Below, piece after piece: positions 28,367 through 57,314 of a stretch of 64,000 nucleotides of DNA (positions are counted from its first letter, which is position 1; each line of letters opens with the position of its first letter). Source of the DNA: Desulfobacterales bacterium (GTDB lineage Bacteria; Desulfobacterota; Desulfobacteria; Desulfobacterales; JAHDSC01). A model generated the notes under the pieces. It worked only from the letters and a program-made list of their open reading frames with translations, was not told the origin of the DNA and ran no database searches. Both the position numbers and the translations under genes were made by a program. The stretch spans positions 1 through 64,000 of the forward strand of contig JAFGES010000104.1 of assembly GCA_016931455.1 (NCBI GenBank), given 5' to 3'.

Positions 28367-29863
28367 ATGGCTGAAAATGAAAAACAGGAAACACCACAGG
28401 CTGCTCAGGCCGAAGAAATCCAAGAGGAAAAAAGCGTCTTAGACCGGATCATCGAAGAAGGCCGTATGGCGCGCGAAGAAAGCCAGAAAGAATGGGCCAA
28501 GGATCTTATTGGAGAGTTTGTCGGGCAGATCATGGAAGGAACCATGGTAATTTCGAAAGATACGGAAGCCATGATCAATGCCAGAATAAGCCAGATCGAC
28601 AGACTGATTTCCATGCAACTCAATGAAGTGATGCACACCCCTGAGTTTCAAAAACTTGAGGCATCCTGGAGAGGGTTGCATTATCTGGTGCACCAAAGTG
28701 AAACCGGCGAACGATTGAAGCTCAGAGTGCTCAATGTTTCTAAAAAGGACCTTCTTAAAGATATGGAAAAGGCCAGCGAATTCGATCAGTCGGCTCTTTT
28801 TAAGAAGGTATATGAAGAGGAGTTCGGCATGTTCGGCGGTGCGGCTTATGGTGCTTTAATCGGAGATTACGAGTTCAGCAACCATCCACAGGATCTATCC
28901 TTACTCGAAAAAATATCGCAGGTGGCGGCGGCGGCGCATGCGCCGTTTATCTCCGCTGCATCCCCGCAACTGTTTAACTGGGATAGTTTCACCGAGCTAG
29001 GCGGTCCCCGTGATATGGCTAAGGTTTTCCAGACGGTGGAATATGCGAAATGGAAATCATTTCGGGACTCCGAAGATTCAAGGTATGTCGCCTTAGCGCT
29101 TCCCCACATTCTGATGCGGCTTCCATATGGTCAGGCCAATGTTCCGGTAGAATCTTTTAATTATGAAGAGGATGTGGACGGCACCACTCATGACAAATAC
29201 CTTTGGGGCAATGCCGCCTATGCATTAGGGGCGCGTTTGACCGATGCCTTTGCCAAATATCATTGGACTGCCGCTATCAGAGGAGTTGAAGGCGGCGGTC
29301 TGGTCGAGGGATTACCGGTGCATACCTTTCGAACCGATGAGGGAGACGTTGCCCTGAAGTGTCCTACGGAAATAGCGATCACGGACCGACGAGAAAAGGA
29401 ATTTGCCGATTTGGGCTTTATTCCGCTGGTGCACTGTAAGGGGACCGATTATGCAGCATTTTTCAGTACTCAGACAGCCAACAAGCCCAAGGTCTATGAT
29501 ACGGATTTTGCCAACGCCAATGCGCGACTGTCTTCGCAATTACAATATATATTAGCGGTTTCACGGTTTGCTCATTATCTGAAATCGATCATGCGAGACA
29601 AAATCGGCAGTTTTATGACTCGTAAGAATGCCGAAGACTTTTTGAATCGCTGGATCAACAACTATGTCCTTCTCGATGACGATGCCGGGCAGGAAATGAA
29701 AGCGAAATTTCCTTTACGAGAAGCAAGGATCGATGTCAGTGAAATGCCGGGCAAACCCGGGGCGTATCGAGCCGTAGCCTTCCTCAAGCCTCATTACCAA
29801 CTGGATGAATTGACCGTCTCGTTGAGGCTTGTTGCGGAGCTGCCACCCCCGGCACAAGGTTAA
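28367..29863 (+). CDS. tssC: T6SS sheath large subunit TssC
   Basis: A 498-aa protein of standard length. Family motifs include PEFQKLEASWRGLHYLV, SETGERLKLRVLNVSK, LALPHILMRLPYG, YLWGNAAYALG and the C-terminal FLKPHYQLDELTVSLRLVAELP. It is the main contractile sheath component, and the C-terminal region supplies strands that lock neighbouring subunits together. GAGGAG lies just before the ATG. Confidence 0.97.
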   Translation: MAENEKQETPQAAQAEEIQEEKSVLDRIIEEGRMAREESQKEWAKDLIGEFVGQIMEGTMVISKDTEAMINARISQIDRLISMQLNEVMHTPEFQKLEASWRGLHYLVHQSETGERLKLRVLNVSKKDLLKDMEKASEFDQSALFKKVYEEEFGMFGGAAYGALIGDYEFSNHPQDLSLLEKISQVAAAAHAPFISAASPQLFNWDSFTELGGPRDMAKVFQTVEYAKWKSFRDSEDSRYVALALPHILMRLPYGQANVPVESFNYEEDVDGTTHDKYLWGNAAYALGARLTDAFAKYHWTAAIRGVEGGGLVEGLPVHTFRTDEGDVALKCPTEIAITDRREKEFADLGFIPLVHCKGTDYAAFFSTQTANKPKVYDTDFANANARLSSQLQYILAVSRFAHYLKSIMRDKIGSFMTRKNAEDFLNRWINNYVLLDDDAGQEMKAKFPLREARIDVSEMPGKPGAYRAVAFLKPHYQLDELTVSLRLVAELPPPAQG

Positions 29864-33724: not shown

Positions 33725-33785
33725 ATAAAAAGATTGAAAATAAGAAATCCTCTATACGTGAATGAATCTGAAAAGGAGAGCTGTT

Positions 33786-36431
33786 ATGCCTGGATCAAAT
33801 CTCAAGTCCTTAATCGGAAAATTAAACAATACGTGTCGCAATGCTTTGGAATCAGCTGCCGGGCTTTGCTTGTCTCAAACCCATTATGAAGTCGACATTG
33901 AACATTTCCTCATTAAACTGCTGGATAAGCCCAATACGGATTTTCAAATGCTGCTCAGACACTTTGAAATTAACGAAGGACGTCTGGCATCGGATCTTAC
34001 GCGGGCCATGGAAGGATTTAAAACCGGCAATGCCCGCACTCCTGCGCTTTCGCCCCGTATTCCCCGTATGGTCCAGGATGCCTGGTTGATTGCCTCCATT
34101 GATTTACAGGCACCTATCATCCGTTCCGGCCATATTCTACTGGCATTGATGAGCAATGCGGAAATGTCCCGCATGTTGACGGCCGATTCCGAAAGCTTTA
34201 AGAAGATTTCCGTCGAAGATTTAAATGAACATCTGATGGATCTGATTTCCGGATCTGCTGAAGACAAAGAGGCGGGAGTTGCTGCCGGACCGGCTGCCGT
34301 AGCCGGTAAAGCCATGATGCCGCCTGCGGGCTCACGGGCGTTGGACCAGTACACCATCAATCTGACCGATCGTGCGCGCAAGGGAGAGATTGATCCGGTT
34401 TTAGGACGTGATTTTGAGATTCGACAGATGGTGGATATCCTCATCCGTCGGCGACAAAACAATCCCATTCTGACCGGTGAAGCCGGAGTCGGTAAAACAG
34501 CCGTGGTGGAGGGTTTTGCGCTGAGAATTGTAGAAGGCGATGTGCCGCCGCCTTTAAAAAATGTGGCCATTCATACACTGGACCTCGGGCTGCTGCAGGC
34601 AGGCGCGGGAATCAAAGGGGAATTTGAAAACCGGTTAAAATCCGTCATCAATGAGGTCAAGGCCTCTCCGATTCCCATTATCCTTTTTATCGACGAAGCC
34701 CATACCTTAATCGGCGCAGGGGGTGCCGCCGGCTCCAGTGATGCCGCCAACCTGCTCAAACCGGCTTTAGCCCGGGGAGAGCTTCGTACCATTGCCGCTA
34801 CGACGTGGTCTGAATATAAAAAATATGTTGAAAAAGACGCCGCGCTGGCCAGACGGTTTCAAGTCGTAAAAATAGAGGAACCGGACGAGATCAAGGCCAT
34901 GGTCATGATGCGGGCGATTGCACCGTTTTTGGAGAATCATCACCATGTGATGATCACCGATGATGCTTTATTGGATGCCGTTCGTCTATCGCATCGTTAT
35001 ATTACGGCCCGGCAACTGCCGGACAAAGCCGTAAGCGTTCTTGACACCGCGTGTGCCCGGGTTGCCATCGGTCTGAATACCAGTCCTGCGGCTATTGAAG
35101 CAGCCGGCCGGCAGATCGACCAGATCGAGCGTGAGAGGAAAATTCTGGAGCGCGAATCTTTGTTGGGCCGGGATCATTCCGAGCGGATTGAGGCGCTGGA
35201 AGCAGAAAAAGAAGCTGCGCAGTTAAAACTGGATGAATTGACCCGGAAATGGGAAGAGGAGATGAAAATTGCCGAAGATATCCAAAAGGTGCGCGGGGAG
35301 CTGCAAGAAATCTATGCCAAAGATCCTGCTGATACGGCTTCATTGTCTCAAAAACAGGAAATGTTGAAAGAACTGGAGCAAAAGCTTGCAACAGTTCAGG
35401 GGGATACGCCTCTGGTTCAGCTTTCCGTTGATCCTGAAATCATATCCGAAGTTATTTCCGGATGGACCGGTATTCCCACCGGCCGCATGCTGACCAATGA
35501 AATTGAAACCGTTCTTAAAATGGAAAATTTATTGGGTGAAAGAATTATCGGTCAGGATCATGCCCTGGAAGCGATCGCTCAGATGATTCAGACCGCGCAT
35601 GCCGGAATTGAAGATCCTTCCAAACCTACCGGCGTTTTTCTTTTTGTCGGTCCCAGCGGGGTAGGCAAAACCGAAACTGCTCTGGTTCTTTCTGATCTTC
35701 TTTACGGTGGTGAGCAAAATGTAATCAGCATCAACATGTCCGAGTATCAAGAGGCGCATACGGTTTCAGGTCTCAAGGGATCTCCCCCCGGATATGTGGG
35801 GTATGGAGAAGGCGGCGTGCTGACCGAAGCGGTTCGGAAGCGGCCTTATAGTGTGGTTTTGCTGGATGAAGTGGAAAAAGCGCATCCCGATGTCATGGAA
35901 CTTTTTTATCAGGTTTTTGACAAAGGTGTTTTGGAAGATGGGGAAGGACGGCGAATCGATTTCAAAAATACCCTGATTATTCTGACATCCAATTTGGGTA
36001 CCGATACGATTATGAAGGTTTGTGCCGATGAAGAAACCATGCCGGATGCCCCGGCCTTGGCCGAAATGCTGCGGCCTGAATTGCAAAAACATTTCAAACC
36101 GGCTTTTCTGGGTCGTTTAAAGGTGGTGCCGTATTTTCCGATTACCGATAAAATTATGCGCCTGATTGTAAAGCTCAAACTGAATCGCATTGCCAAGCGA
36201 ATGCGCGACAACCGCAATGTCGCTTTCCTTTACGATGAAGAATTGATTGATTCCATTGCCGGTCGCTGCACGGAAGTCGACAGCGGTGCCCGCAACATCG
36301 ATCATATTCTCACCAATACCCTGCTGCCGGAAATGTCCAGGGAGTTGCTGTCGAGAATGGCAAGGGGAGAACAGCTTAAAGAAGTGAAGGTTTCGCTGGG
36401 AGAAAAAGGATTTGTTTTTGATATTCATTAA
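33786..36431 (+). CDS. clpV: T6SS AAA+ ATPase ClpV (TssH)
   Basis: An 881-aa Clp/Hsp100 protein that disassembles contracted sheaths. It has an N-terminal double-Clp repeat ([18 protein letters not shown]), a first AAA domain with Walker A GEAGVGKT (from residue 231), a coiled-coil middle domain, and a second AAA domain with GPSGVGKTE (from residue 622) and [14 protein letters not shown] 33786 has AAGGAGAG upstream; the frame is open 24 bases earlier but without a ribosome site. Confidence 0.96.
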
Positions 36432-36446
36432 CTGTGAGGTATGGTG

Positions 36447-38006
36447 ATGCGGGAACCGATTTCGTTTGAGAAACTGGATGTAAAATTGGTTTCAACCATG
36501 GAAGAAATTTCCGATGCGCCGAAACCTGAGACTCCGTTTAGGATTTTGATTCTGGGAGATTTCAGCGGACGTGAAAATCGCGGTCTGTCGGAAACGAGGG
36601 CTACGATCACGAGTCAGCGGATTTTATCGATAGATCGAGACAATTTTGATGAGACGCTTTCAAAAATCGGAGTTAAGCTGCATCTTGGTATTGCCGGTGA
36701 TGAGGGACCGTTTGTTGATCTATGCTTCAACGAATTGGACGATTTTCATCCGGACCGAATTTTTCAGCAGGTCGAGATTTTCAAATCATTGCGACAGGTC
36801 CGCAAAAATCTTGATGATCACCGAACAGTTACGTCCGCGGCCGCTCAGGTGAAAAGCTGGGCGGTTGAACCAACCGTTGAACCAGTCATCGGATCCGGCA
36901 GGCAAGAAACTATGGGAGACTTGCTGGATCAGGTCATCGAGTCATCACAAGGGAAACCTGCGGATAAAAAGCCGGCTTCGAGCTCAGATGATATAGATGA
37001 TTGGGATGCTTTTTTAGGGGAAATCGTCAGGCCTTATATCGTTTCAACTGCCGAGCTTAAGCAAACGGAAGAATTAAAGGCAGCGGTGGATGCCGCTGCC
37101 GGCAAACTAATGCAAAAAATTTTGCATCATCCGGATTTTCAGGCTACTGAAGCTGTTTGGAGGGCCCTTTACTTTTTAGTATCGCGGTTGGAAACCGATA
37201 CAAAGCTGAAGCTGTATATACTGGACATCTCAAAAGCCGAATCGGCTTGTGATCTCAATATGCCGGTGGACATTCGATCAACCGGGATTTATAAACTTTT
37301 GGTAGAAAAAACCATTGAAATCCCGGACGGTGAACCCTGGGCGGTTCTGACCGGCCATTATACTTTTGATCAGACCCTTGAAGATGTTAAGCTGTTGGGG
37401 CGCATTGCCGCAGTTGCCGAAGCGGTAGGTGCCCCTTTTCTTGCAGCCGCTCATGAGCGGGTATTGGGCTGTAAATCATTGCTTGAAACCCCCGACCCGG
37501 ATAACTGGCGGCAGCCGCCGGATAATGAAGACGATCGGGCATGGAAGGCGCTCCGGAGGCTTCAAGAGGCTTCATATATAGGTCTTGCTCTGCCGCGTTT
37601 TTTGCTTCGCTTGCCCTATGGCGAAGCCACCGACCCCATCGAGTATTTTGAATTTGAAGAAATGCCGGACCGGCCGAAACACGAGAACTACCTATGGGGC
37701 AACCCCGCATTTGCCTGTGTGTATCTGTTGGCCCAAGCCTTTACTGCTTACGGCTGGAAATTTCGGCCCGGCGCGGTTCAGGATATCGAAGGCCTCCCGA
37801 TTCACATTTACCGTGAAAACGGTCAATCCCGCCTACAACCTTGTACCGAGGTTATATTCAGCGAAAAAGCTGTTACCGCTATACTGGACAGGGGCATCAT
37901 GCCGTTGGTTGCAATTGGAAACCGGGATACGATCCGGCTGGTGCGTTTTCAGTCCTTGGCGGACCCTCTATCGCCCCTTTCCGGCAGATGGCTTCACCAT
38001 TCATAA
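36447..38006 (+). CDS. Natural TssB-TssC fusion, sheath-like paralog
   Basis: A 519-aa protein. Residues about 20-130 resemble TssB: ILGDFSG, SIDRDNFDETL and NELDDFHPDRIFQQV match the real TssB of this operon. After a linker of about 60 residues, the rest resembles TssC: HHPDFQATEAVWRALYFLV, LPRFLLRLPYGEATDPIEYF and ENYLWGNPAFA. It ends near TssC residue 360, so the last roughly 140 residues, which include the strands that join sheath subunits, are absent. It is the last gene of the operon, starting 15 bases after clpV. ATG 36447 with GAGG seven bases upstream is preferred. It probably cannot form an ordinary sheath; a cap, adapter or regulator role is inference. Confidence 0.88.
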   Translation: MREPISFEKLDVKLVSTMEEISDAPKPETPFRILILGDFSGRENRGLSETRATITSQRILSIDRDNFDETLSKIGVKLHLGIAGDEGPFVDLCFNELDDFHPDRIFQQVEIFKSLRQVRKNLDDHRTVTSAAAQVKSWAVEPTVEPVIGSGRQETMGDLLDQVIESSQGKPADKKPASSSDDIDDWDAFLGEIVRPYIVSTAELKQTEELKAAVDAAAGKLMQKILHHPDFQATEAVWRALYFLVSRLETDTKLKLYILDISKAESACDLNMPVDIRSTGIYKLLVEKTIEIPDGEPWAVLTGHYTFDQTLEDVKLLGRIAAVAEAVGAPFLAAAHERVLGCKSLLETPDPDNWRQPPDNEDDRAWKALRRLQEASYIGLALPRFLLRLPYGEATDPIEYFEFEEMPDRPKHENYLWGNPAFACVYLLAQAFTAYGWKFRPGAVQDIEGLPIHIYRENGQSRLQPCTEVIFSEKAVTAILDRGIMPLVAIGNRDTIRLVRFQSLADPLSPLSGRWLHHS

Positions 38007-38122: not shown

Positions 38123-38157
38123 AACTATAATAAACAACACAAAAAGGAGTTGTGACC

Positions 38158-38421
38158 ATGCAGACAATTGAATCTTATGTTCCGATCACCCAAGCAAAGG
38201 CAAAACTTTTAGATATAGTGAGGCAATTACACGACACTGACGACACCATTGCAATTACAAAAAACGGGGTGCCTGAAGCCGTCATGCTGTCCATGAAGAA
38301 ATTTGAAGGATTGTTAGAGACTATCGACATTTTGGCTGATCCCAAAATGATGAAACAACTTAAAGGTTCGGCTAAAGATGTAAAAGCAGGCCGCTTGATT
38401 GATATCGAAGAGGCGTTTTAA
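38158..38421 (+). CDS. Phd/YefM-type antitoxin
   Basis: An 87-aa protein with the family's VPITQAKAKLLDIVRQL N-terminal DNA-binding fold, IAITKNGVPEAVMLS, and an acidic C-terminal tail for toxin binding. ATG 38158 is eight bases after AAGGAG; GTG 38152 would be too close to it. Stop and toxin start overlap as TAATG. It neutralises the toxin and likely represses its own promoter. Confidence 0.9.
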   Translation: MQTIESYVPITQAKAKLLDIVRQLHDTDDTIAITKNGVPEAVMLSMKKFEGLLETIDILADPKMMKQLKGSAKDVKAGRLIDIEEAF

Positions 38422-38702
38422 TGGTATATCGAGCCAAGATTACGCCTTTTGCCAATAAAGAAGCCAAAAAGCTTAATCCCGAAGTGAAAAGAGCCGCAAA
38501 AGCTGCCTTGAAAGAGCTTGCCCAAAATCCTTATCTTGGCAAAGAACTTCAACACGAATTAAGCGGCTTCCGGTCTTATAGGTTCTTGAGGTATCGGATT
38601 ATTTATAAGGCCGATACAGAAAAAAAGATTATCATTGTTTGGGCTATCGGCCACCGGCATGATATTTACGAAACTTTTGGTAATCATCTTTTAAGTGTTT
38701 GA
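38421..38702 (+). CDS. RelE/ParE-superfamily toxin
   Basis: A 93-aa basic protein. The pattern PFANKEAKKL...ELSGFRSYRFLRYRIIYKAD...IVWAIGHRHDIYE is that of RelE-type mRNA interferases, with the C-terminal GHRxDIY box. ParE-type gyrase poisons share the fold; the arginine and histidine in the last box favour RelE-like activity. It forms a coupled pair with the antitoxin upstream. Confidence 0.88.
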   Translation: MVYRAKITPFANKEAKKLNPEVKRAAKAALKELAQNPYLGKELQHELSGFRSYRFLRYRIIYKADTEKKIIIVWAIGHRHDIYETFGNHLLSV

Positions 38703-39129: not shown

Positions 39130-39936
39130 ATGATCCTGCCATTTAATATCTTACAAAAGCCATTGTCTACCCTAGGCCGATTAACCATTTTTTCCATTCA
39201 GGAAATAGGGCGTGTGACCGTATTTTTTTTCCAGGGAATTTTATTTATTTTCTCACTTCCGCTGCAGATCTCTAAAACGATTCATCAGGTTTATTTCATT
39301 GGTATGAAATCGGTTTTTGTGATCTGCTTGACAGGTGCATTTACCGGTATGGTGCTCGGTCTGCAGGGATATTATACGCTGGTAAAATTCGGCTCCGAGG
39401 GCTTGTTGGGGGCGGCGGTGGCACTTTCTTTGATCCGGGAGCTCGGACCGGTCTTGACGGCCATCATGGTGACCGGAAGGGCCGGATCTGCGATGGCTGC
39501 GGAAATCGGGATTATGCGGATTTCAGAACAGATCGATGCCTTGATAACGATGGATATCAATCCGATTCGTTTTCTGGTGAGTCCGAGGATGTTAGCCGCA
39601 TTCATCAGTATTCCACTTCTGACGGCTATTTTCGATGTGGTGGGGATTTTAGGCGGGTATTTGACGGGTTCGGTTTTATTGGGGATTAACCCTGGGATTT
39701 TTTTCTCCCGTGTTGAATCCAGTGTTCTCATGAAGGATATTTCCGGCGGTTTCATCAAATCGTTTGTTTTTGCCGCTGTTGTTGCAACCATCTGCTGTTT
39801 TCAGGGATACAACACCCATAAACGGGCGGAAGGTTTCGGAGCCAAGGGCGTAAGCCTGGCAACGACCTCCGCTGTAGTGATTTCCAGTGTTCTGATTCTT
39901 GTCACGGATTACATTTTAACATCTATTTTACTTTAA
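39130..39936 (+). CDS. mlaE: Lipid-transport ABC permease MlaE
   Basis: A 268-aa inner-membrane permease. The family motif GLQGYYTLVKFGSEGLLGAAVALSLIRELGPVLTA (read in part) and EIGIMRISEQIDAL mark MlaE, which has about five membrane segments. With MlaF, MlaD and soluble MlaC it moves phospholipids between the inner and outer membrane. It is the first of five co-directional mla genes and has the full family length. Confidence 0.95.
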   Translation: MILPFNILQKPLSTLGRLTIFSIQEIGRVTVFFFQGILFIFSLPLQISKTIHQVYFIGMKSVFVICLTGAFTGMVLGLQGYYTLVKFGSEGLLGAAVALSLIRELGPVLTAIMVTGRAGSAMAAEIGIMRISEQIDALITMDINPIRFLVSPRMLAAFISIPLLTAIFDVVGILGGYLTGSVLLGINPGIFFSRVESSVLMKDISGGFIKSFVFAAVVATICCFQGYNTHKRAEGFGAKGVSLATTSAVVISSVLILVTDYILTSILL

Positions 39937-39942
39937 AATTCA

Positions 39943-41172
39943 ATGAATACACCCCTGATCGAGTTTAAAGAGGTTTATAAAAAATTTGGTACCCATGAGG
40001 TTTTAAGAGGCGCCAATCTCAGCATCTTCCAGGGAGAGATAACGACGATCATCGGCAAAAGCGGGGTCGGTAAAAGCGTTCTGCTTAAGCATATCATCGG
40101 TCTCATAGAACCGGATTCCGGTCAAATCCTGTTTCAGGGAAAGCCTCTTTCCGAAATGAAAAAAGCTGAAAAAAAGGCCCTTAAAAAGAAATTCAGTTAT
40201 ATGTTTCAGGGAACGGCTCTTTTTGACTCGATGACGGTTTTTGAAAATATTGCGCTTCCACTGAAAGAAAAGACAACTTTACCCGGCAAAGAAATTCAAA
40301 AACGGGTGTTGAATAAAATGCATCAACTTGATTTACATGATATTGAAGATCAATATCCTTCCCAGCTTTCCGGCGGAATGAAAAAACGAGTGGCGCTGGT
40401 CAGGGCCTTGATAACCGACCCGGAGATCATTTTATTTGACGAACCGACCACGGGGCTAGATCCGATTCGCAAAAATGCGGTTCACAGTATGATTTCCGAT
40501 TATCAGAAACGCTTTGGTTTTACAGGGGTCGTCGTCAGCCACGAGATACCGGATATTTTTTATATATCGCAACGAATTGCGATGATTGAGGAAGGCCGGA
40601 TTGTTTTTCAGGGCAGTCCCAAGGAAGTCCAAGAGTCTTCCGATCCGGTTATCAATCAGTTTGTTCACGGGCTGGAGATTCGACGAGACGATATGACCGG
40701 TATTATACCGCAACCGTTGGGAGAGGAAAGATTTAGAGAAGAAATGGAGCGACTGCAACGCTACCGGACTTCCTTTTCCCTAATTATGTTGACCGTCGAG
40801 AATCTGGAGGAAATCAACGAAAAGATGGGGCATGTCAAAGGTCAGATGTTACTTAAAAGACTCGCCGCTCAAGTACAAGACCTTTTAAATATTACCGATA
40901 CTTGCTCACGCTATGGGCTGAACAAGCTGATGGTATTGCTGCCCAATACCGATCTCGACCAGGCCCGCAAATTCTGTGACAAACTGGCAACTGAGCTGAA
41001 GCGAAAAGAGCTTCCCGAATTACCGATGCCTTCGGGACTCTGCTTTTCAGTGAGCGCCGGGTTTGTCGAAGCACAAAAAAACAGCCAATTGGAAACTTTG
41101 ATTGCAAATGCGGAATCGGTTCAAAATTCATTTTATGAATTCCGTGTCTGTTCACCCCGGGAGGAGTTATGA
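39943..41172 (+). CDS. mlaF: MlaF ABC ATPase fused to a degenerate GGDEF domain
   Basis: A 409-aa protein; ordinary MlaF is about 270 aa. Residues 1-240 are a complete ABC ATPase: Walker A GKSGVGKS, signature LSGGMKKR, Walker B ILFDEPTTGLDP and a switch histidine in VSHE. Residues about 255-400 resemble a GGDEF domain: SLIMLTVENLEEINEKMGHV, LLKRLAAQV, then SRYGLNKLMVLLPNTD and FSVSAGFV. The active-site loop reads GLNKL (325-329) instead of GGDEF, so it should not make cyclic di-GMP. It may be a binding or interaction module in place of MlaB, for which no gene is present here. Confidence 0.9.
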   Translation: MNTPLIEFKEVYKKFGTHEVLRGANLSIFQGEITTIIGKSGVGKSVLLKHIIGLIEPDSGQILFQGKPLSEMKKAEKKALKKKFSYMFQGTALFDSMTVFENIALPLKEKTTLPGKEIQKRVLNKMHQLDLHDIEDQYPSQLSGGMKKRVALVRALITDPEIILFDEPTTGLDPIRKNAVHSMISDYQKRFGFTGVVVSHEIPDIFYISQRIAMIEEGRIVFQGSPKEVQESSDPVINQFVHGLEIRRDDMTGIIPQPLGEERFREEMERLQRYRTSFSLIMLTVENLEEINEKMGHVKGQMLLKRLAAQVQDLLNITDTCSRYGLNKLMVLLPNTDLDQARKFCDKLATELKRKELPELPMPSGLCFSVSAGFVEAQKNSQLETLIANAESVQNSFYEFRVCSPREEL

Positions 41173-41621
41173 AAAGTTCGTATGTTGAAACGGCCGTCGG
41201 CATCTTTGTTCTGATCGGCATTATCTGTGTGGGATACCTGACGATTCGGCTTGGAAAGATGGAATGGATAGGCGATAATTATTATTCCGTCTATGCGCGA
41301 TTCCAGACGATTTCAGGCCTCAAGACAGGTACCCAGGTCGAAATGGCGGGCGTTGAGATCGGTAAAGTCGATTCCGTTTCTCTGGATCCGAAAAGGCAAG
41401 TGGCACTGGTTGAGATGAAGATTCAGAAAGGCCTGGTTTTAACCGATGACGTGATTGCTTCGATTAAAACTTCAGGGTTGATCGGCGATAAGTATATCAG
41501 TCTTTATCCGGGCGGGTCCGACATTATCCTCAAACCGGGTGATATGATAACGGAAACCGAATCGGCTGTTGATTTGGAAGAATTGATCAGTAAATATGTT
41601 TTCGGCGGAATAGAAAAATAA
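41169..41621 (+). CDS. mlaD: Lipid-transport MCE protein MlaD
   Basis: A 150-aa protein with one N-terminal membrane helix (residues 8-27) and one MCE domain: YSVYARFQTISGLKTGTQV, MAGVEIGKV and LIGDKYISLYPG. It forms a hexameric ring on the MlaE/MlaF complex. It overlaps mlaF by four bases (ATGA) and has GGAGG before its start. Length is slightly short of E. coli MlaD but normal for minimal forms. Confidence 0.94.
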   Translation: MKSSYVETAVGIFVLIGIICVGYLTIRLGKMEWIGDNYYSVYARFQTISGLKTGTQVEMAGVEIGKVDSVSLDPKRQVALVEMKIQKGLVLTDDVIASIKTSGLIGDKYISLYPGGSDIILKPGDMITETESAVDLEELISKYVFGGIEK

Positions 41622-41655: not shown

Positions 41656-42246
41656 GTGAAAAGGATCATTCCGGTATTTATTCTAATATTAATTTATACG
41701 ACTGCCGGGGCATACGGCCTAGAACCTTTGGAAGAACTTAAAAAACCGATCGATCAAGTGATCGGCATTTTGCGGGACCCCCAATACATCGACGATGCTC
41801 AAAAGAAATTGCAGCATGATAAAATCTGGAAGATTGTCCGGGGAGTTTTTGATTTTAAAGAAATCGCCAAACGCACGTTGGCTCGAAACTGGCTGATTTT
41901 TACCGTGCAGGAAAGAAAAGAATTTACCGATATATTTGCCGAATTTCTGGGAGACATCTATATTGAAAAAATACAAGGGGAATACCACAACGAACAGGTG
42001 GTTTATCTAGAGCAGGAAATGATTACGGCTTCCAAGGCAATCGTTAAAACCAAAATCCTTAGGGAAACGCTTGAGATTCCTATGGACTACCGTATGTTGA
42101 TGGGAAATGGAAATTGGAAAATTTATGACGTCAATGTCGAAGGGGTCAGCCTTGTCAAGAACTACCGGACTCAATTCAGCGAAACCCTCTTAAACGAAAC
42201 ACCTGCACAGCTCATTGAAAGATTGAGAGAAAAGATCAAACGTTAA
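41656..42246 (+). CDS. mlaC: Periplasmic lipid carrier MlaC
   Basis: A 196-aa protein with a signal peptide (cleavage likely after YTTAGAYG). The mature part fits the MlaC/Ttg2D family: VFDFKEIAKRTLARNW, FTDIFAEFLGDIY and NWKIYDVNVEGVSLVKNYR. It shuttles phospholipids across the periplasm. GAAAGGAG precedes the start, and mlaA follows 5 bases after its stop. Confidence 0.94.
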   Translation: MKRIIPVFILILIYTTAGAYGLEPLEELKKPIDQVIGILRDPQYIDDAQKKLQHDKIWKIVRGVFDFKEIAKRTLARNWLIFTVQERKEFTDIFAEFLGDIYIEKIQGEYHNEQVVYLEQEMITASKAIVKTKILRETLEIPMDYRMLMGNGNWKIYDVNVEGVSLVKNYRTQFSETLLNETPAQLIERLREKIKR

Positions 42247-42251
42247 AAAGA

Positions 42252-43025
42252 ATGAACCATTCATTTAAACCGATATCATGGATTTTGGTATTGCTGCTGT
42301 TATTTTTATTTTTTGAGGATCTGCAAGCCGCCGGATTTGAAAAAGTTGGGAAAATAGAGGCTGATTTTTCAGATGAAGATCTTGATTTTTTAAACGAAGA
42401 AATTGAAGAGGAAAGCATACGGGTGGCCGATCCGCTGAGCCTATGGAACCGGGGCATATTTCACTTCAATGATAAATTCTATTTTTGGGTCTTAAAACCG
42501 GTTGCCGATGGATACAAAACGGTCGTGCCGAGCAAAATACGGATAGGAGTGAAAAATTTTTTCCAAAATCTTTTAACGCCGATTCGGTTTGTAAACTGCA
42601 TCCTGCAGGGTAAGCGGCATGCAGCCGAAGCGGAGTTTGCGAGATTTCTATGCAATACTACGGTGGGAGTGCTTGGATTTGGAGATCCGGCTAAAAAATA
42701 TTATCCGGCCCTCCAAGCCCCCGAAGAGGACCTGGGCCAGACCCTTGGTGTTTATGGTATCGGTAACGGTATCTATATTATTTGGCCTTTTTTAGGACCC
42801 TCCACACTGCGAGACTCCTTTGGGCTTATTGGAGACCATTTTTTAGATCCGCTTTCTTATGTCAATCCCATTGAATCGTCTTTGGCGATTAGAGGGTTTG
42901 ATACCGTTAATGCAACTTCTTTTCGAATCGGTGATTATGAGGCTTTCAAGGAATCGGCCATTAAACCCTATGAAGCTTTTCGAGATGCCTACATTCAGAT
43001 GCGGAAAACAAAGCTGGAAAAATAA
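42252..43025 (+). CDS. mlaA: Outer-membrane lipid asymmetry protein MlaA (VacJ)
   Basis: A 257-aa protein. DPLSLWNRGIFHFNDKFYFWVLKPVADGY, FFQNLLTPIRFVN, LGQTLGVYGIGNGIYIIWPFLGPST (part of longer conserved stretches) identify MlaA. It removes misplaced phospholipids from the outer leaflet. A signal peptide (about residues 10-28) is present but lacks the lipobox cysteine of E. coli MlaA, ending DLQAAGF, so this form appears not to be a lipoprotein. An acidic 40-residue segment precedes the MlaA domain. Confidence 0.94.
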   Translation: MNHSFKPISWILVLLLLFLFFEDLQAAGFEKVGKIEADFSDEDLDFLNEEIEEESIRVADPLSLWNRGIFHFNDKFYFWVLKPVADGYKTVVPSKIRIGVKNFFQNLLTPIRFVNCILQGKRHAAEAEFARFLCNTTVGVLGFGDPAKKYYPALQAPEEDLGQTLGVYGIGNGIYIIWPFLGPSTLRDSFGLIGDHFLDPLSYVNPIESSLAIRGFDTVNATSFRIGDYEAFKESAIKPYEAFRDAYIQMRKTKLEK

Positions 43026-55412: not shown

Positions 55413-57314
55413 ATGGTTGAGTTTACGGATCAGAAATGGATATGCCGGCTGAATAAATTGGATTTTGCCTTTCAACCCATAGTGAACATATATACCGGAA
55501 ATGCTTTTGGGTTTGAGGCACTGCTAAGGTATCACACGAGCGCGGGCTTTGTTTCAATTGATCATATTTTTGATCAGGCCTATGAACAAGGCCTACTTCA
55601 TCAGGTTGATCTGTATTTGCGGCAAAAAGCATTTATTAAATTTGCAAAATTTAAAAAGAAAAGCCACATTAAATTATTCTACAATCTTGACAGTCGACTG
55701 TTTGATTCTAAAGACTATATCCCGGGAAATACGTTTGGGTTGCTTAAAAAATATGGGTATTCTTTGGATGACGTTTGCTTTGAAATATCGGAAAAACATC
55801 AGTTTCATAACAATATCGATGTGTCTAAAATTTTGGAGGCTTATCGTTGTCAGGGATATAAGATTGCGGTGGATGACTTTGGGACAGGATTTTCAGGCTT
55901 ACAGCTCTTATATTACGCAGAACCGGATTATATTAAAATAGACCGTTTTTTTATTCAAAATATGGAGAATGATCCCAAAAAGCGATTGGTGGTTTCAACT
56001 ATTGTTAATTTTGCTCATTTCGCCGGAAGCCTTGTTTTGGCGGAGGGGGTTGAGACAAGGGACGAATATAGTCAGTGCAAGGAAATCGGGTGCGACATGA
56101 TACAGGGATATTTTGTGCAGAGGCCACAGCTGGATTTGAATCAATTGAAGAGTCGATATGATGAAATTGGAAAAATATTCAGAGATGATAAACGTAATGG
56201 ATCATTCAAAGATCGTTCCTTAATTTCCAATGAGATAAAGTATATTCAACCAGTGTACTCAGACTGTGATGTCATCACAATATTTGACAAATTCAGACAA
56301 GAGGAAAATGCTTCATTTTTTCCGATTATCAATCGTTATGAAGAGCCGGTTGGAGTGATTCGGGAGACGGCTTTCAAGGAATACATTTTTTCAAAATTCG
56401 GACGTCAACTGGCGGAAAATCCTTCGTTTGGAAAAGATATCTCCAAATTTATTACAAAAATCCCCATCGCGGATATTCATTCATCGGTTGAAAAGCTCAT
56501 TGAAACCTATACCCAATACAATAATAATGAGGGATTGATTATGATGGATGATATGAAATATGTGGGACTTTTGAGCACAAAGTCTCTTTTAAAAATTATC
56601 CATGAAAAAAATATTACCCTGGCCCGTAATCAGAATCCTTTGACCAAATTGCCCGGAAATACCATGATTCATGAATACTTTAGCGAATCCCTGGCAGATT
56701 TTAAATCCACCTATCATTTAATATATTTCGATTTTGATAATTTTAAACCTTATAACGACCGGTACGGCTTTAGAAATGGTGACCGTTTGATTTTGATGTT
56801 TGCTGACCTTTTAAAAAAGATTGGATTTTCCGAAAACAGATTTGTCGGTCACATTGGTGGGGATGATTTTTTTATAGGTATTAAAAATGCGAAACGCAGC
56901 GAAATTACGGAAGAAATGACGAGACTTGCCCAACAATTTAAAAAAGATGCGGTAAGTTTTTATGATGAACAAACCAGGAAAAAAGGCTTTATGATGGAAA
57001 AAGACAGAAACGGCGTGGAAAGAAAAATACCTCTGATTACCGTCAGCATTTCCGTGTTGGAGCTTCCCCACGGAGTAAACAGGAATTGTTCCATAGAAAA
57101 TGCCGCCAATATTATTGCTTTGCTGAAAAAAGAAGCCAAGCGATCTGAAACAGGAATATCGTTTGCTAATATCATGGAATTTATATCCCCGGGATCGGAC
57201 GATTCTCATTGTTTATTAAACAATTTTGCTTTTGAAACAACACCGGATCATTTTTGTGACTTGCATCTTGCAAAAAAGCACAAAAGTATTTTGAGCAGTA
57301 CCAGATTGAACTAA
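55413..57314 (+). CDS. EAL-CBS-GGDEF cyclic di-GMP protein
   Basis: A 633-aa cytoplasmic protein without membrane helices. The EAL domain is N-terminal (about 10-250), with GFEALLRY, the metal motif VDDFGTGFSG and AEGVETRDEY, so phosphodiesterase activity is plausible. A CBS pair-like region (about 275-400) follows, and then a GGDEF domain (about 410-590) with FDFDNFKPYNDRYGFRNGD and the active loop GGDDF, close to consensus. The order EAL-CBS-GGDEF is known in proteobacteria. It could both make and degrade cyclic di-GMP, controlled by a nucleotide bound to CBS. The start has GGGAG upstream. Confidence 0.92.
   Translation: MVEFTDQKWICRLNKLDFAFQPIVNIYTGNAFGFEALLRYHTSAGFVSIDHIFDQAYEQGLLHQVDLYLRQKAFIKFAKFKKKSHIKLFYNLDSRLFDSKDYIPGNTFGLLKKYGYSLDDVCFEISEKHQFHNNIDVSKILEAYRCQGYKIAVDDFGTGFSGLQLLYYAEPDYIKIDRFFIQNMENDPKKRLVVSTIVNFAHFAGSLVLAEGVETRDEYSQCKEIGCDMIQGYFVQRPQLDLNQLKSRYDEIGKIFRDDKRNGSFKDRSLISNEIKYIQPVYSDCDVITIFDKFRQEENASFFPIINRYEEPVGVIRETAFKEYIFSKFGRQLAENPSFGKDISKFITKIPIADIHSSVEKLIETYTQYNNNEGLIMMDDMKYVGLLSTKSLLKIIHEKNITLARNQNPLTKLPGNTMIHEYFSESLADFKSTYHLIYFDFDNFKPYNDRYGFRNGDRLILMFADLLKKIGFSENRFVGHIGGDDFFIGIKNAKRSEITEEMTRLAQQFKKDAVSFYDEQTRKKGFMMEKDRNGVERKIPLITVSISVLELPHGVNRNCSIENAANIIALLKKEAKRSETGISFANIMEFISPGSDDSHCLLNNFAFETTPDHFCDLHLAKKHKSILSSTRLN

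Follow-up and report, generated by a model that had tools for sequence, protein, structure and literature searches.

In the mla operon of a Desulfobacterales bacterium, we found an Mla-type ABC ATPase that carries at its C terminus a GGDEF-fold domain, catalytically dead by its residues and fused at the point where Escherichia coli MlaF has a dimerization element. We consider the chances about even that this domain is a regulatory or dimerization domain of an MlaE2F2D6-type ATPase, acting by protein contacts to stabilize or tune the dimer of nucleotide-binding domains (NBDs). It is probable that the tail keeps the motor dimer together or adjusts it and does not produce or sense the usual messenger. 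The sequence analyzed was a 64,000-nt stretch of contig JAFGES010000104.1 (the window), in which the gene occupies positions 39943–41172 of the forward strand and reads without interruption through 409 aa, with exact coordinates. Chance, a frameshift, an artifact, or a chimeric fusion was ruled out by the recurrence of the fusion in dozens of independent genomes. Both domains are already known; the novelty appears to lie in their being joined, in how widely the fusion occurs, and in the loss of catalytic residues throughout. A literature search, which lacked most subscription papers and preprints, returned no description of an MlaF–GGDEF fusion.

The gene order at the locus is mlaE-F-D-C-A, and every neighbor was confirmed by Pfam. 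The permease gene mlaE (39130–39936; 268 aa, without a STAS domain) matches PF02405 (7.4e-80) and scores above the cutoff of TIGR00056 (249.7 bits). Downstream, a short mlaD with an MCE domain (41169–41621; TIGR04430, OM_asym_MlaD, 164.8 bits against a cutoff of 135) overlaps the mlaF stop codon by four bases and is followed by mlaC (41656–42246; PF05494, 7e-41) and the lipoprotein gene mlaA (42252–43025; PF04333, 1.1e-67), all on the forward strand. Residues 1–243 of the fusion (39943–40671) are an Mla-type ABC ATPase: ABC_tran (PF00005) matches residues 21–170 with an E value of 8.9e-37, and Walker A (GKSGVGKS, 40054–40077), the LSGGM signature (40366–40380), Walker B (ILFDE, 40429–40443), and the H-loop (His200, 40540–40542) are all present. 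The methionine of LSGGM is characteristic of Mla-type NBDs (PMC7367683). The top PDB folds for the NBD were those of E. coli MlaF (PDB ID codes 6xgy and 6xbd), with 37% identity over 242 positions and TMt of 0.82–0.84. The ATPase is MlaF-like in the broad sense, the proteobacterial MlaF equivalog NF008809 being the best-scoring NCBIfam family at 204 bits, below its cutoff of 441.

By profile and predicted fold, the rest of the protein (residues 244–409, 40672–41169) is a GGDEF domain. The PF00990 profile matches residues 248–392 (E = 1.8e-19, 70.5 bits against a gathering cutoff of 23.8); it was also matched by the tail alone (3.2e-19) and, at E ≤ 0.01, by 27 of 28 homologues. A sequence search with the tail alone reached diguanylate cyclases in the PDB (best 4.2e-13). 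A profile built from 70 fused domains retrieved 53 PDB sequences at E ≤ 0.01; diguanylate cyclases and further GGDEF proteins headed the list, which also included ammonium-transporter fusions. An AF2 model of the domain alone, with 70 homologues as input, had a mean pLDDT of 87.0 and a pTM of 0.83, and each of its top 50 PDB matches in Foldseek was the structure of a GGDEF domain or a diguanylate cyclase (TMq 0.68–0.77). In the full-length model (pLDDT 81.9), the short linker (residues 244–251, 40672–40695) is poorly defined, with low pLDDT, and the sequence GLNKL (residues 325–329, 40915–40929), which replaces GG[DE]EF, lies on the β2–β3 hairpin at the position of the cyclase motif. A sequence-only reading of this DNA had proposed that MlaF is joined to a GGDEF domain and that this domain is degenerate, with its active loop changed to GLNKL; both proposals were borne out, the predicted fold of the tail having the structural likeness to GGDEF on which that reading turned.

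To compare residues, we aligned the window copy with four intact GGEEF domains of its own genome and surveyed 71 fused homologues, using PleD numbering, in which we take D327 and E370 to be metal ligands. The window copy has T at D327, E at K332, Q at D344, and N at E370; it lacks the C-terminal GRN segment and keeps N335 and R366, N335 being the only one of the canonical GTP ligands compared that survives. The c-di-GMP I-site, canonically RxxD five residues before the motif, is a remnant, NITD (residues 316–319, 40888–40899), from which the Arg has been lost. A GG[DE]EF motif was present in none of the 71 fused homologues, nor were both metal ligands together, and no relative with an intact motif was found among them. 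D344 is replaced by Q in 60 of them, K332 by D or E in 54, and E370 by N in 41; GRN is absent from all 71, whereas R366 survives in 70 and the glycine of SxG in 69. Judged by these residues, the domain is catalytically dead. Because the same substitutions (T327, D/E332, Q344, and N370) recur in the divergent clades, the loss of catalysis is most simply older than those clades, which points to a common dead ancestor of the fused domains. With replacements common to the 71 domains and GRN missing from every one, the pseudo-GGDEF family therefore appears to be old and under selection.

The window domain shares with the diguanylate cyclases SiaD (7e6g), DgcR (6zxm), and PleD (1w25) the fold, the profile, the LTG entry motif, R366, and the first glycine of the motif. 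In contrast to these enzymes, its metal, phosphate, and guanine ligands are replaced, it has neither a GRN segment nor a stalk, and it sits C-terminally on an ABC ATPase. A GGDEF-bearing ammonium transporter (8qj3 and 8qpf), matched by sequence only, likewise combines a transporter protein with a C-terminal GGDEF domain, although that transporter is not an ABC ATPase. The fusion shows clearly how an ABC ATPase can take in the fold of a second-messenger enzyme and retain it in catalytically dead form.

Full-length homologues of the fusion were found in 25 of 58 Desulfobacterales genomes: 22 with a clade-A fusion (truncated at a contig end in one genome) and 3 others with only a fusion of the second, more divergent clade B, some genomes having both. 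A sample of the phylum gave full-length matches in at least 35 of 297 genomes, in many families. Among named records, a full-length alignment search placed the fusion in Desulfobacterales, in other Thermodesulfobacteriota, and in single metagenome-assembled genomes labeled Nitrospirota and Verrucomicrobia, where binning may be imperfect; a scan of named genomes with the C-terminal domain only gave no match. The fusion is thus present in many sulfate-reducing and related bacteria, and the tail seems to have been retained for a very long time. In a tree of the ATPase part only, fused sequences cluster strongly (9 changes vs. 31.7 with shuffled labels). Unfused sequences, in which 2–22 residues follow the NBD, are nested among fused clade-A ones; many inner branches are weak, and the well-supported (starred) branches force only two changes. 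This pattern suggests few gains and repeated losses of the domain. For comparisons that allowed an estimate of dS, the domain had a dN/dS of ∼0.10–0.17, with dS near saturation; by this estimate, the domain is under purifying selection, laxer than that on the ATPase part. Two MlaF homologues from Opitutales (L136 and L162) have C-terminal extensions of ∼140 residues that by eye are not GGDEF and are possibly another tail domain or a case of extreme decay. The unfused MlaF of the gammaproteobacterium Moritella sp. PE36 (L118) is 65% identical to the window ATPase part and groups with a sequence from Desulfobacterales, likely through horizontal transfer.

The fusion point, on which the sequence-only reading was silent, is the start of the MlaF C-terminal extension. 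NF008809 aligns window residues 4–244 to its positions 7–247 of 270, and residues 247–269 of E. coli MlaF form a C-terminal handshake extension that wraps the partner MlaF (PMC7367683). Since the alignment stops where the E. coli extension starts, the pseudo-GGDEF is fused exactly at the site of a dimerization element, and the GGDEF-fold domain occupies the handshake position in the window protein. Deletion of the handshake in E. coli abolished function, with MlaF lost from the complex, and a GCN4 dimerization domain fused in its stead substantially restored function (PMC7367683). E. coli MlaF in MlaFEDB (6xgy and 6xbd; PMC7367683) resembles the window protein in NBD fold, LSGGM signature, and an operon with mlaE and mlaD, but it has the 23-residue handshake and bound MlaB, whereas the window protein has a domain of ∼160 residues there and no MlaB. 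The junction is short and constant: in 70 of 71 homologues, seven residues separate the end of the NBD from LTG, with neither stalk nor coiled coil. Small C-terminal domains below the NBDs regulate MetN and ModC (PMC10710835); MetN C2 and ModC are likewise small fused domains after the NBD, and an action on NBD association is presumed to be common to both kinds, but they have another fold and bind the transported substrate. Stabilization or tuning of the NBD dimer is the best-supported candidate mechanism because the fusion point falls at a dimerization element, the junction is short and constant, and MetN and ModC provide a precedent.

In the mechanism that we propose, the ATPase would belong to an MlaE2F2D6-type phospholipid transporter, a stoichiometry borrowed from known Mla complexes. 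The dead GGDEF-fold domain, starting where the handshake extension would begin, would most likely work through protein contacts: below the NBD, it could meet its twin domain or the neighboring NBD in the F2 dimer. Such contact might steady or tune NBD dimerization and assembly on MlaE, as do the E. coli handshake and the C-terminal domains of MetN and ModC, with a presumed effect on ATPase or transport activity. In the nested unfused orthologues, whose operons look intact, the domain and a clear handshake extension are both missing, and thus, the domain is dispensable in some lineages. Most diderms are without MlaB, and a conserved domain fused at the end of MlaF on which function depends is a concrete, testable candidate regulator in a large bacterial group.

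The operon does lack mlaB, as the sequence-only reading had stated and as a profile search of the operon confirmed, but the suggestion built on this, that the domain may replace MlaB, gained no support. In such a role, the domain would dock on the NBD helical subdomain and stabilize MlaF on MlaE, in keeping with an order devoid of MlaB and with the single binding groove used by both the handshake extension and MlaB in E. coli (PMC7367683). MlaB proper (NF033618) scored above cutoff in 0 of the 58 Desulfobacterales genomes, fused or unfused, with a positive E. coli control; across 30 genomes, no mla operon contained a STAS_2 match, and three genomes with unfused MlaF (G004, G020, and G050) had none anywhere. 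Close unfused orthologues (60–69% identity) stand in the same operon, likewise without mlaB. Because MlaB is absent from fused and unfused genomes alike, its absence is no pointer to a replacement. A phylogenomic survey also found MlaA, MlaB, and MlaC to be sparse in diderms, with MlaEFD as the ancestral core (PMC10665443), and the predicted fold is GGDEF, not STAS. We regard replacement of MlaB as improbable. No mlaB elsewhere in the genome came to light that might serve the complex: three stand-alone STAS proteins were rejected as MlaB, lying by eye beside HATPase/SpoIIE-like or chemotaxis-type genes, and a fourth STAS was rejected as the N terminus of another MlaE. Contig C82 of the window’s genome encodes an MlaE-type permease (L003; 391-aa frame) with an N-terminal STAS-like region, another route to a built-in MlaB-like module.

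Degenerate GGDEF domains can serve as c-di-GMP receptors; PelD, PopA, and the BcsE GIL domain are examples that, like the window copy, have the fold without catalysis, but they keep the RxxD that the window copy has lost. Three further observations would fit a receptor for c-di-GMP (or GTP) that ties second-messenger level to Mla activity: 27 of 40 clade-A domains have RxxD at the canonical distance ahead of the motif, the genome has intact GGEEF cyclases, and the window contains an EAL-CBS-GGDEF gene (55413–57314). Binding of c-di-GMP is possible in those 27 relatives. Sensing through the I-site is, however, not likely in the window copy with its NITD; the R is also replaced in 13 of 40 clade-A domains, clades B and C have no RxxD, and the replacements at D344 and K332 and the absence of GRN weigh against a receptor as well. 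The earlier idea of a nucleotide sensor gained no support for the window copy, and we judge a receptor role for the domain to be unlikely. The domain might instead be a recruiting platform for another protein, be it one with GGDEF/EAL domains or a factor of the cell pole or envelope. The inactive GGDEF of PdeB is a precedent for such a protein-binding switch: it binds HubP (PMC9061725) and has the fold without catalysis but keeps the GTP-binding residues lost from the window copy. SiaD, the closest match by family and fold, was solved with its partner SiaC, but SiaC was rejected as a partner here, none being found in the genome, and no partner gene beyond mlaEFDCA is conserved in the operon; we think such a platform rather unlikely.

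Four conserved cysteines of clade A, C321, C345, C367, and C403 (40903–40905, 40975–40977, 41041–41043, and 41149–41151), are present in 36, 34, 30, and 23 of 40 domains, respectively, and are the only cysteines of the window protein, whose ATPase part has none. They might make the clade-A domain a redox or metal sensor, and C367 and C403 co-occur (Fisher 2e-5 ignoring relatedness; a phylogeny-aware test had no power). They may instead be mere core residues, and clade B retains just one, the C-terminal one; a sensor of this kind strikes us as very improbable. Least credible is the view that the domain is a passive relic without any regulatory function: the repeated absence of the domain from orthologues nested among fused ones would suit it, but the low dN/dS, the conservation of R323 (70 of 71) and G373 (69 of 71), and the constant linker length speak against it. 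Beyond the tuning of the NBD dimer, we tentatively entertain, as a broader and doubtful reading, a phylum-wide class of MCE/Mla systems with a repurposed dead GGDEF as built-in ATPase regulator. In it, ligand sensing would have diverged by clade, with the c-di-GMP I-site intact in much of clade A and lost elsewhere, including the window copy; in clade A, cysteines might also provide a redox or metal input. Copies with and without RxxD occur side by side in nature, as do fused and unfused orthologues, and they offer a ready comparison.

Upstream of the mla operon, two small adjoining ORFs (38152–38702; 89 and 93 aa) have by eye the look of a RelB/Phd-type antitoxin and a RelE-type toxin. Further upstream, a single ORF (36441–38006) contains both parts of a type VI secretion sheath, VipA/TssB-like (residues 26–130) and VipB/TssC-like (residues 213–505). 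It adjoins a ClpV-like ORF (33762–36431), and a separate VipB/TssC ORF lies at 28367–29863.
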